A stretch of DNA of 21,231 nucleotides from the IMG/VR virus record IMGVR_UViG_3300008117_000355, positions 1 to 21,231 of that record. One strand, given 5' to 3'. The position numbers and the translations under genes are program-made. Numbering within the stretch: position 1 is the first letter of the stretch; each line of letters opens with the position of its first letter. Positions 16,113-20,717 of this stretch are shown here, in pieces. Source of the DNA: a virus. The notes under the pieces are model-generated. The model was not told the origin of the DNA and ran no database searches. It saw nothing but the letters and a program-made list of their open reading frames with translations.

Positions 16113-16826
16113 TTACCCAAATTTCGTATATCCGTTTTCTAAATAAAATAAATAGTTTTTCTTAAATATTAAATTTAAATGATTAGCTATTTTAGTAATA
16201 CGAGGAGTTTTTACATCAATTTGTTCTCTAATATAAATGTAAAGAGCTTTTTTATTAAAAACATCAATGTCTTCTCTTTTTCTAAACAACTCTAAAATAG
16301 CATCCGCTACTTGGGCATCGTCTTTTTTAGGAAATAATTTAAATATATTATAGGTGCAATAATCAACATATAAATCTATAAATCCTGAGAGTTTATCGTT
16401 TATTGTATCGTGGATTTGCTCCTCTAAAGAATAAGTATGGGATTCGTCTTCTTCTAGTTCTGTAATTTCAACTTTATCTATTCTGCGTTTGTAATTTTGG
16501 GTATTATTTAATATCAAATAACGTTTTGCTATTGTTCCAAAATATGAATATGCTTTTGCTCCCTTAGAAGGATCGAATAAATGTATTTTAGAAAGAAGAA
16601 ATGTTATTACTTCGTGCTGTAGATCCTCAATATTTTCAACCTCCGTATAGTAAAACTTGAAAGTATGAATTATATTTTCGGTTAATTTGAAAAAAGGATA
16701 ATGAATATGTCTACTATAAATTAGACTTCGGGTGTGTTCATCAGCTGTATTGTTGTATTTAACAATAGAATCTTCAGTATCCTGTGTAAAATATTGCGTA
16801 CCTTTTTTGGGTTCTATTCCTATCAT
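16113..16826 (-). CDS. 55: Late-transcription sigma factor (gp55-like)
   Basis: A 237-residue protein with a sigma-70 region-2-like core at residues about 64-115: an acidic helix (E-N-I-E-D-L-Q-H-E-V), then F-D-P-S-K-G-A-K-A-Y-S-Y-F, I-A-K-R-Y-L-I and a basic N-Y-K-R-R. The F-D-P-x-K-G-x-x-A-[YF] motif is shared by sigma factors and T4 gp55. gp55 binds host RNA polymerase and directs it to late promoters (TATAAATA in T4), switching on structural genes. The gene sits directly upstream of the structural block it would activate. It overlaps the membrane-protein gene by ATGA. The rest of the protein is divergent, so other sigma-like functions are possible. Confidence 0.8.
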   Translation of the reverse strand: MIGIEPKKGTQYFTQDTEDSIVKYNNTADEHTRSLIYSRHIHYPFFKLTENIIHTFKFYYTEVENIEDLQHEVITFLLSKIHLFDPSKGAKAYSYFGTIAKRYLILNNTQNYKRRIDKVEITELEEDESHTYSLEEQIHDTINDKLSGFIDLYVDYCTYNIFKLFPKKDDAQVADAILELFRKREDIDVFNKKALYIYIREQIDVKTPRITKIANHLNLIFKKNYLFYLENGYTKFG

Positions 16827-18137: not shown

Positions 18138-18569
18138 TCAAGCTTTATTTGCAAATTCTCTAGATTTGTCTTGAATTTTTTTCAAATGGGCACATTTTTC
18201 ATATTCTTCTAGTCCTTCCCAATATGAAATAGCTAAATCAAAACATTTAATAAAGGTGTTGTTTGAATACATTTTAATAGCGTCTAAGTGGGTAGATTTA
18301 GATATATCTACTTTTGAAATAAACTCCCAACTTCTAGTGTATATCATAGAACTAGTAATCCCTTGAACATCAACATTTTGAGGTAAAATAGTATTTAATT
18401 GAAAATACAGAGAATTACTACTAGTAATGATTTTCTTAAACATTCCCAACCAAAATACAGGTGTATTTTTTAAATCAAAAAGCGTTTCAGTTTCACTATT
18501 AGTAAGAGGAGTATCGGAGGATTGGTCAAATAGCCCAAATATTTTATCTATGTCCATTCGTACATACAT
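18138..18569 (-). CDS. Hypothetical phage protein (143 aa)
   Basis: A 143-residue acidic, mostly helical protein without a signal peptide. Recognisable pieces are I-F-G-L-F-D near the start, F-W-L-G-M-F-K-K-I-I in the middle, and a C-terminal helix with E-E-Y-E-K-C-A-H-L-K-K. I know no function for it. The ATG at 18569 and an in-frame ATG at 18557 (M-D-I-D-K) are both possible; the second would remove a four-residue M-Y-V-R extension. It is the first protein gene after the tRNA array, with a 39-base A/T-rich gap upstream. In that gap the gene-sense strand reads AATAAATATTAC, loosely like a T4 late promoter. Confidence 0.7.
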   Translation of the reverse strand: MYVRMDIDKIFGLFDQSSDTPLTNSETETLFDLKNTPVFWLGMFKKIITSSNSLYFQLNTILPQNVDVQGITSSMIYTRSWEFISKVDISKSTHLDAIKMYSNNTFIKCFDLAISYWEGLEEYEKCAHLKKIQDKSREFANKA

Positions 18570-18608
18570 ATATACATTTCTTGGAAAAGTAATATTTATT
18601 TAAGTTAG

Positions 18609-18682
18609 TAGGAGAAGCGGGACTCGAACCCACAACCTCGTGCTCCCAAAGCACGTAATCTAACCAATTGATATATTCCCCT
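18609..18682 (-). tRNA. tRNA-Pro(UGG)
   Basis: The sense strand folds as a tRNA: a 7-bp acceptor stem (A1-U72 first pair, one G-U), anticodon stem CGTGC/GCACG, loop TTTGGGA giving anticodon UGG, and T-arm GTGGG/CCCGC with loop TTCGAGT. Discriminator A, followed by CTA rather than CCA. It is the last gene of the array in transcription order. Confidence 0.93.
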
Positions 18683-18689
18683 ATGTTTC

Positions 18690-18890
18690 CCCACCCTGAG
18701 ATTTGGGGTGAGTAGTCATTCCGGTTTTTTCCTATTGATAAAACCTACAGGGCATCCCCTATTAAAACAGTCACACTACGAAGGAGGGGCTGTGATTGGC
18801 ACCTTAACCCTAAGAACCGGCATTCCGCTGTCCGATTTAAGCGAGCCCATTGTTTAAGTCTTGAACTAAAGACTCTGAGTATCTCTTACT
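18690..18890. ncRNA. Probable structured RNA of unknown family between tRNA-Asp and tRNA-Pro
   Basis: This stretch holds no gene over 35 codons, yet is clearly richer in G+C (about 42-52% in 60-base blocks) than the flanking A+T-rich genes, like the tRNAs. It contains several inverted repeats: AGTCTT/AAGACT with a 6-base loop (about 18857-18874), GAGTA/TACTC (about 18877-18891), CAGTCACA/TGTGATTG with one G-U (18768-18798), CCGGTTTT/AGAACCGG with one U-G (18721-18820), and CACCC/GGGTG (about 18692-18710). The two wobble pairs would form only in plus-strand RNA, whereas the tRNAs around it are minus-strand, so the strand is left open. It does not match tmRNA, SRP RNA or RNase P RNA by eye. Confidence 0.35.
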
Positions 18891-18895
18891 CATTG

Positions 18896-18969
18896 CGGTT
18901 CGTATGGGAATCGAACCCATGACCTTCGCAGTGACAGTGCGATATTGTACCCAACTCTACTAACGAACC
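18896..18969 (-). tRNA. tRNA-Asp(GUC)
   Basis: Acceptor stem GGTTCGT/ACGAACC is perfect. The anticodon stem TCGCA/TGCGA encloses CTGTCAC, anticodon GUC. T-arm ATGGG/CCCAT with loop TTCGATT. Discriminator G, as usual for Asp; no CCA (next bases CAA). The D-stem is weak. Confidence 0.93.
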
Positions 18970-18973
18970 ATTG

Positions 18974-19046
18974 AGCGATAAACAGGACTCGAACCTGCAA
19001 CCTCCGACTTGGAAGGACGATGCTCTACCAATTGAGCTATTATCGC
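18974..19046 (-). tRNA. tRNA-Gly(UCC)
   Basis: Acceptor stem GCGATAA/TTATCGC, D-stem GCTC/GAGC, loop CTTCCAA giving anticodon UCC, T-arm GCAGG/CCTGT with loop TTCGAGT. Discriminator U, as expected for Gly. The anticodon stem has one U-U mismatch. Spaced 4 bases from tRNA-Asp; no encoded CCA. Confidence 0.92.
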
Positions 19047-20267: not shown

Positions 20268-20717
20268 TTAACGGCAGTGGTAATCTGCCGCTTTTGTAGC
20301 AATTTGAATATCAGGCTTGACATTCACTTTGTATCCCAACGATAAGGCCCAACCACGAGTTGCTCCTATAAGTTTGTGGCTAGGTGCAATTTCGTCTTGG
20401 TTATAGTCCATATCAATTTCAACATTTATGTTGATTTGTTGGGTAAACCATTCTGCCACTTCCAATGTACGAACACATTCATCAAATAATCTTGTGAACA
20501 TATCGCGCACTAGTGGAACTTTTTCTTTTGTATAGATATAGTGAACACCTCTGATACCAAAACGATATGCTATTACAGTTACATATGATGTTTCTAATCC
20601 TATATTTTGAGAATCAGTACCAATATGAACTTTTAGATTAGGATACCTTTTCATTATCTCTAAGGTGTGTTCAACAACATCTATTACTCTGTTGTCTACT
20701 GATTTGAACCTTTTCAT
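20268..20717 (-). CDS. RNase H-fold protein, YkuK (DUF458) family
   Basis: A 149-residue protein whose whole length matches the YkuK/DUF458 type of RNase H-like fold. Candidate metal-binding acids are D35 (H-I-G-T-D-S-Q), E100/D102/D104 (V-E-I-D-M-D-Y-N) and D145 (A-A-D-Y-H-C). Other conserved-looking stretches are Y-V-T-V-I-A-Y-R-F-G, V-H-Y-I-Y-T-K-E-K-V and T-R-G-W-A-L-S-L-G-Y-K-V. The fold suggests a nuclease or nucleic-acid-binding role, but the family has no firmly established substrate that I know of. It sits inside the tRNA array, with tRNA-Met 15 bases upstream and tRNA-His 2 bases downstream, so a role in RNA processing is tempting but unproven. The leader TTTAATAAA has no Shine-Dalgarno. 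Confidence 0.88.
   Translation of the reverse strand: MKRFKSVDNRVIDVVEHTLEIMKRYPNLKVHIGTDSQNIGLETSYVTVIAYRFGIRGVHYIYTKEKVPLVRDMFTRLFDECVRTLEVAEWFTQQININVEIDMDYNQDEIAPSHKLIGATRGWALSLGYKVNVKPDIQIATKAADYHCR

Follow-up and report, generated by a model that had tools for sequence, protein, structure and literature searches.

A conserved, pseudoknotted RNA element between the tRNA genes of uncultured phages

The tRNA arrays of phages are usually regarded as a store for codon supply. Species C and D of the T4 tRNA cluster are stable non-tRNA RNAs that come from a phage tRNA operon. Among the RNAs of translation, tmRNA has a fold that contains a chain of pseudoknots. ROOL is longer than the 212-nt element described below. 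According to PMC12286853, ROOL and GOLLD are phage and prophage RNAs found near tRNA islands, their multimers use kissing loops, and many GOLLD RNAs exceed 800 nt. Theta ribozymes have their cleavage site at the 3' ends of phage tRNAs, with ~90% of hosts in the Bacteroidota (PMC10879173). In this report, we describe an element that is carried by many uncultured phages, usually once each, between tRNA genes. We place it among the tRNA-island phage RNAs, a known kind, as a new family that is uncatalogued in Rfam 15.

The spacer in the window and its relatives

The window, by which we mean the whole stretch of 21,231 nt analyzed from the viral record IMGVR_UViG_3300008117_000355, contains 18 tRNA genes, every one of which ARAGORN assigns to the minus strand; 17 of them are upstream of the element. 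It is the bounding tRNA-Asp and tRNA-Pro genes that fix the exact spacer (Table 1). A sequence-only reading had described this spacer as geneless, raised in G+C and rich in inverted repeats, and as a possible undescribed phage RNA antisense to the array; a search of Rfam and a covariation test among relatives were its proposed checks. Indeed, no ORF of at least 60 aa (ATG, GTG or TTG starts) lies inside it, and a single 100-aa frame over the tRNA genes overlaps its edge by 9 bases. The raised G+C was also borne out (0.448, against 0.331 for the window), but the adjoining tRNA block stands at 0.504. At least five inverted repeats had been claimed, and a seed-6 search gives three. Folded alone, the minus strand of the spacer gave an energy within chance (z -0.67, equalled by 47 of 200 shuffles), and the plus strand gave one that was somewhat low and not beyond chance (z -1.55; 12 of 200). 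Elsewhere in the window, an RNaseH_like protein (PF04308, 1.8e-20) is encoded within the tRNA array, and a hypothetical protein gives a weak match to sigma-70 region 2 (2.3e-4, 21.3 bits against a cut-off of 24).

Rfam 15 (4227 families) includes GOLLD, ROOL, tmRNA, RNase P, SRP and the HDV-like ribozymes. It was searched over the window at the gathering score, over positions 18560-18980 at E<=10 and over 15 element loci at E<=0.5. No family reached its cut-off on the element, in keeping with the earlier view that it is not tmRNA, SRP or RNase P RNA; the one chance hit scored 10.7 bits where the cut-off is 34 (E 6.5), and other matches touch the element by 1-2 nt at most. Neither ARAGORN nor Rfam found a tmRNA in the window. 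A degenerate tRNA, a tmRNA and a group I intron were each considered for the element and set aside for lack of a match. At one other locus, a partial group I intron match (L162:1017-1158, minus strand; 34.2 bits against a cut-off of 50) is cut by the end of the stretch.

Relatives were gathered from viral contigs through a baseplate protein search, from which the best 80 of 598 matches were taken, and through three exact-pattern scans that returned 96, 51 and 62 stretches. Among 270 loci (some contigs taken repeatedly), there were 151 near-full-length matches, amounting to 106 distinct sequences; across 100 distinct sequences, the median identity to the copy in the window is 70%, and the lowest is 54%. 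The spacer is 94% identical in one locus (L049) and 75% identical in the L012/L083 contig. In L004, a close relative, tRNA-Asp and tRNA-Pro stand 5 nt apart, and blast did not find the element in its 21-kb contig; the RNA may therefore be dispensable or located elsewhere there. Model R1 gives the window element 206.1 bits, a score that is high by construction because the sequence is part of the model. At the weak end, L077 probably holds a member at greater distance (30.9 bits), with poor alignment of the first hairpin, and six loci give a 28-bit match only (L090, L093, L108, L158, L163 and L175). In L093 (1713-1762, minus strand), tRNA-Asp and tRNA-Pro are separated by 50 nt that retain only the last hairpin, P8, a remnant that loss, relocation or recombination may have left; in L090 and L163, a spacing of 50 nt and a pattern match indicate the same kind of remnant. 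Three members (L091, L087 and L123) are ~55 nt longer than the others, with extra bases in the P3 region.

Outside the uncultured viral contigs, matches were at most short and of chance level. When the window element, L172 and L153 were compared with named phages by blastn, 1, 3 and 0 records matched, each over 12-13% of the query (E 0.02 to 2), and against plasmids the window element gave 3 records (11-14% of the query, E 7) and L194 none. Two exact patterns had 0 occurrences in GTDB genomes, a search that would miss diverged copies. The gene order of the window resembles that of Flavobacterium phage immuto, whose baseplate wedge protein is 45% identical; immuto has no match to model R1, and the best E for that model on three named relatives was 0.28. 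A search of full-text literature through titles and abstract openings, with subscription journals and preprints scarcely covered, turned up no such RNA by name.

Fold, covariation and strand

As drawn from the aligned relatives, the conserved fold comprises hairpins and at least two H-type pseudoknots on the tRNA strand (Table 1). It was assessed on a structure-blind MAFFT alignment (A4) of 63 of 77 distinct sequences, from which the three insertion members and 11 others, mostly near-duplicates, were left out; RNAalifold gave a poor fold on an alignment that included those three. A larger alignment holds 100 of the 106 distinct sequences, those above 235 nt, containing N or cut by contig ends having been dropped.

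Table 1. Features of the window around the element, with conservation among relatives (minus-strand fold; percentages of paired cells from alignment A4 unless stated)
Feature	Positions	Strand	Details
Whole RNA element	18683..18894	-	212 nt; relatives found
tRNA-Asp(gtc), upstream neighbor	18895..18969	-	ARAGORN
tRNA-Pro(tgg), downstream neighbor	18608..18682	-	ARAGORN
5' hairpin H1	18876..18892	-	6 bp, loop AGAGA; 97.9% paired; double changes in 3/6 pairs
Hairpin P2, loop enters pseudoknot 1	18857..18874	-	92.7-95.2% paired; double changes in 4/5 pairs
Pseudoknot 1	18845..18866 (18862-18866 with 18845-18849)	-	94.5% paired; double changes in 4/5 pairs; in the tree-aware test (100 sequences), E<0.05 for two pairs
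Helix P3	18826..18843 (18841-18843 with 18826-18828)	-	88.9% paired; E<0.05 for two pairs (100 sequences)
Pseudoknot 2	18816..18836 (18832-18836 with 18816-18820)	-	77.5% paired; double changes in 5/5 pairs
Helices P4 and P5	18781..18812 (P4, 18809-18812 with 18781-18784; P5, 18802-18804 with 18785-18787)	-	P4 89.6% paired, E<0.05 for one pair; in P5, E=0.025 for the 95% canonical pair 18804-18785 (100 sequences)
Pseudoknot 3, tentative	18792-18794 with 18772-18774	-	60% paired on MAFFT columns
Short hairpin P6	18750..18759	-	Triloop AUG/AAG closed by G-C or U-A; 97.4% paired; double changes in 3/3 pairs
Hairpin P7	18723..18745	-	93.7-97.2% paired
3' hairpin P8	18690..18712	-	Conserved loop AAUCUCA; 98.4% paired
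Kissing contact, H1 loop with P8 loop	18698..18885 (18882-18885 with 18698-18701)	-	252/252 cells paired
RNaseH_like protein (PF04308)	20268-20717	-	
Weak sigma-70 region 2 match	16113-16826	-	

On A4, the 48-pair structure is paired in 93.2% of 3007 cells, against 35.6-50.4% for versions of the structure slid along the alignment, and has a covariation score of 0.326, against 0.054-0.094 for the slid versions. Changes on both sides occur in 30 of the 48 pairs, and none of 500 column shuffles reached any of five measures. In an unguided scan of the column pairs of A4, the top five included pairs of the helices and of pseudoknot 1; four of the five were at least 90% canonical and the other, 135-146, was 56% canonical.

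Because the structure was drawn from the same sequences, unpaired evolution was also simulated, using a tree-aware null of our own scripting rather than R-scape, with a FastTree tree and 40 simulated alignments; all column pairs were tested and compared with a list of structure pairs that had been widened from 48 to 65. In the 63-sequence test, all four pairs at E<=0.05 were on this list, three of them belonging to the 48. With 100 sequences, seven of nine were on the list and six belonged to the 48, the seventh, again 135-146, being only 65% canonical. The two pairs off the list were 91-110, which is 95% canonical and extends helix P5, and 143-179, which is 36% canonical and not a base pair. 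The strongest covariation in the column-pair scan and in both tree-aware tests was that of the P6 pair 18759-18750. The spacer thus shows compensatory changes beyond those that relatedness would give, as a structured non-coding RNA gene should.

Not every part of the fold is equally firm. The alignment of pseudoknot 2 is less sure, two of its pairs being 56-61% canonical in the 100-sequence alignment, and the tentative pseudoknot 3, convincing by eye in single sequences, was left out of the 48-pair structure. In the kissing contact of the H1 loop with the P8 loop, the changes are solely A to G opposite U (15 cells); as there are no double changes, the contact is strongly suggested rather than proved.

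The counts of G-U against A-C combinations indicate the strand. The kissing loop has 15 G-U and 0 A-C, and the last helix contains a near-constant U-G pair (60 of 63 sequences), both of which favor the minus strand. The counts for helix P3 and for pseudoknot 1 point the same way, and those for pseudoknot 2 are balanced (26 vs 28). The sequence-only reading had placed an RNA on the plus strand from helices with G-U pairs, and an 11-bp helix of this kind is present in the window sequence, but it is not conserved among the relatives: taken as plus-strand RNA, 52% of its cells are paired over 11 pairs, and counted on minus-strand letters, nine of the pairs are 46.9% paired with covariation below that of shuffles. 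A plus-strand RNA was ruled out on this ground. The element is read from the minus (tRNA) strand and is not antisense to the array, a conclusion also favored by the strand of the neighboring tRNAs, 417 of 417 of which within 1.2 kb of 100 elements share that of the element (ARAGORN).

A small protein translated from a conserved AUG was likewise rejected, the peptides ranging from 2 to 56 residues in 91 of 100 sequences and the other 9 having no AUG. Of these 91 peptides, 40 have 14 residues and many start MSKRYS, features that we would put down to the conserved first hairpin.

Setting among tRNA genes and copy number

The element lies tightly between its neighbors. The acceptor stem of a tRNA or tRNA-like gene ends exactly 2 nt upstream in 62 of 77 distinct elements, and such a gene begins -3 to +1 nt from the element end in 65 of 77. 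Our script finds no tRNA-like fold upstream in 15 and downstream in 12; by eye, several of the missed upstream cases are tRNAs whose T loop is unusual, and several lack a tRNA, which means that not every element can be processed at both ends. For 86 of 100 elements, ARAGORN places a tRNA no more than 1.2 kb away. Among the flush neighbors there are 13 different ARAGORN labels in 39 upstream cases, one of the labels being undetermined, and 9 in 56 downstream cases, a range of isotypes wide enough that the element is not tied to one tRNA. At 18 loci with 3 kb on both sides, tRNAs are more numerous upstream in 10, downstream in 4 and equal in 4. A shared neighboring protein was sought at 77 loci, and the commonest cluster occurs at only 14 of them.

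Copy number is low. All of 20 contigs of 71.7-261 kb, chosen for holding the element and including some near relatives, have a single copy. Of 20 further contigs, 14, likewise chosen for holding it and with near relatives among them, have one full-length copy, 5 have a 28-bit match only, and 1 has none at E<=0.01, though a 39-nt 3' piece lies at the end of its locus, L154. Two extra weak matches accompany the full copy in G045, and L258 has two copies, of 128 and 63 bits. A tmRNA above the cut-off is present in 11 of the first 20 contigs, and the element is therefore not their tmRNA. In a related phage contig, the tmRNA (L009:1158-1546, plus strand) has the tag AEYAVAA.

Many of these contigs also contain tRNA-like genes whose acceptor stem (AGTCAGG/CCTGACT) and T arm are constant and whose D arm is often of Leu type, in which cores that vary greatly in sequence and length replace the anticodon and variable arms; three were folded. 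They occur in L198, L186, L181, L194, L210, L114, L122, L103 and others, and flank the element in many contigs. Their T-arm/acceptor pattern (1 mismatch allowed) is present in 19 of 20 element-bearing contigs, with up to 15 occurrences per contig, in neither of two named phages and nowhere in the window; the reversed control pattern has 0 occurrences. Separately, a freshwater-1 RNA (RF02979) lies 26 nt upstream of the element in L110 (295-356, minus strand; 71 bits against a gathering score of 72), and 45 bases upstream of the element in L151 are nearly identical to that region.

Proposed explanation, alternatives and known systems

The abutment of tRNAs on both sides and the low copy number point to an RNA gene released by tRNA maturation and acting in trans. 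With a probability of roughly 0.6, we propose that the tRNA operon holds in this spacer a gene for a non-coding RNA, one that is freed by the cuts that mature the tRNAs, stable and trans-acting. From the setting, we infer that the element would be transcribed together with the tRNAs, its 5' end arising when the upstream tRNA is trimmed to its mature 3' end and its 3' end from RNase P cleavage at the downstream tRNA. The freed RNA, of ~213 nt, would be stabilized by its locked loops and would act most likely on the translation machinery or the tRNA pool of the infected cell.

Given that theta ribozymes adjoin the 3' ends of phage tRNAs (PMC10879173), a cleaving ribozyme is a serious rival. A self-cleaving element of another fold that gives the upstream tRNA its mature 3' end would account for the exact spacing to that acceptor stem (62/77) and could make use of a pseudoknotted fold, and a window whose gene order resembles a Flavobacterium phage fits the predominance of Bacteroidota hosts (~90%) given there for theta ribozymes. 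We nonetheless consider it unlikely, as no HDV-like or other ribozyme family matches in Rfam, a single copy in contigs whose arrays hold many tRNAs is a poor fit to a general tool for tRNA ends, several elements have no upstream tRNA, and the tRNA abutting the 3' end would go unexplained. It is similarly doubtful that the element represents a new class of tRNA-end ribozyme or, alternatively, the constant component of a phage RNA system, with the hypervariable-core tRNA-like RNAs that surround it in many of these genomes as the variable components. A role in cis, as an antiterminator or processing signal for a long untranslated tRNA transcript, would agree with a position mostly beside tRNAs and on their strand, but the element can be anywhere in the array (10, 4 and 4 of the 18 loci above), and 17 of the 18 tRNAs of the window precede it, whereas an antiterminator would be expected near the array start; such a function is improbable, and an antiterminator at the array start is not favored given the varying position.

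The pairing of 252/252 loop-loop cells would also suit an RNA whose 5' and 3' loops kiss between molecules to build rings or cages, in the manner of ROOL and GOLLD, phage RNAs near tRNA islands that multimerize via kissing loops (PMC12286853). The same cells would be paired in an intramolecular contact, which sequence cannot separate from an intermolecular one, and the element is far shorter than either RNA; we regard self-assembly as rather improbable. A mobile or selfish DNA insert with hairpins as mere by-products would explain presence and absence between close relatives, the 50-nt 3'-hairpin stretch that takes its place in L093 (and, by spacing and pattern, in L090 and L163) and the many different neighbors. 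Its usual single copy per contig, the compensatory changes and the lack of an internal ORF of 60 aa make this very improbable.

The earlier suggestion of an undescribed phage RNA is supported, for an element that is conserved, covarying, set at tRNA ends and absent from Rfam 15. A conserved RNA, rich in knots and usually present once, that lies between their tRNAs suggests that phage tRNA arrays also deliver RNAs other than tRNAs, possibly made by host tRNA-processing enzymes. The family is large enough for probing and cryo-EM, and would extend the few known tRNA-island RNAs (ROOL and GOLLD).

Among known systems, the likeness to tmRNA is that of a chain of pseudoknots beside RNAs of translation, but no tmRNA matched on the element and 11 of 20 element-bearing contigs have a separate one over the cut-off. 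With T4 species C and D, compared by description rather than by sequence, it would share being a stable non-tRNA RNA of a phage tRNA operon. Like theta ribozymes (PMC10879173), it abuts the 3' end of phage tRNAs, with Bacteroidota phages as a common ground; it differs in having no HDV-like Rfam match, in its 212 nt, in being usually single-copy and in also butting onto the next tRNA. ROOL and GOLLD are both longer, and the element has no Rfam match. Yet these two are nearest to it in kind: according to PMC12286853, they too are phage-encoded near tRNA arrays, with an elaborate fold that includes kissing loops, and ROOL, like the element, has multiple pseudoknots.
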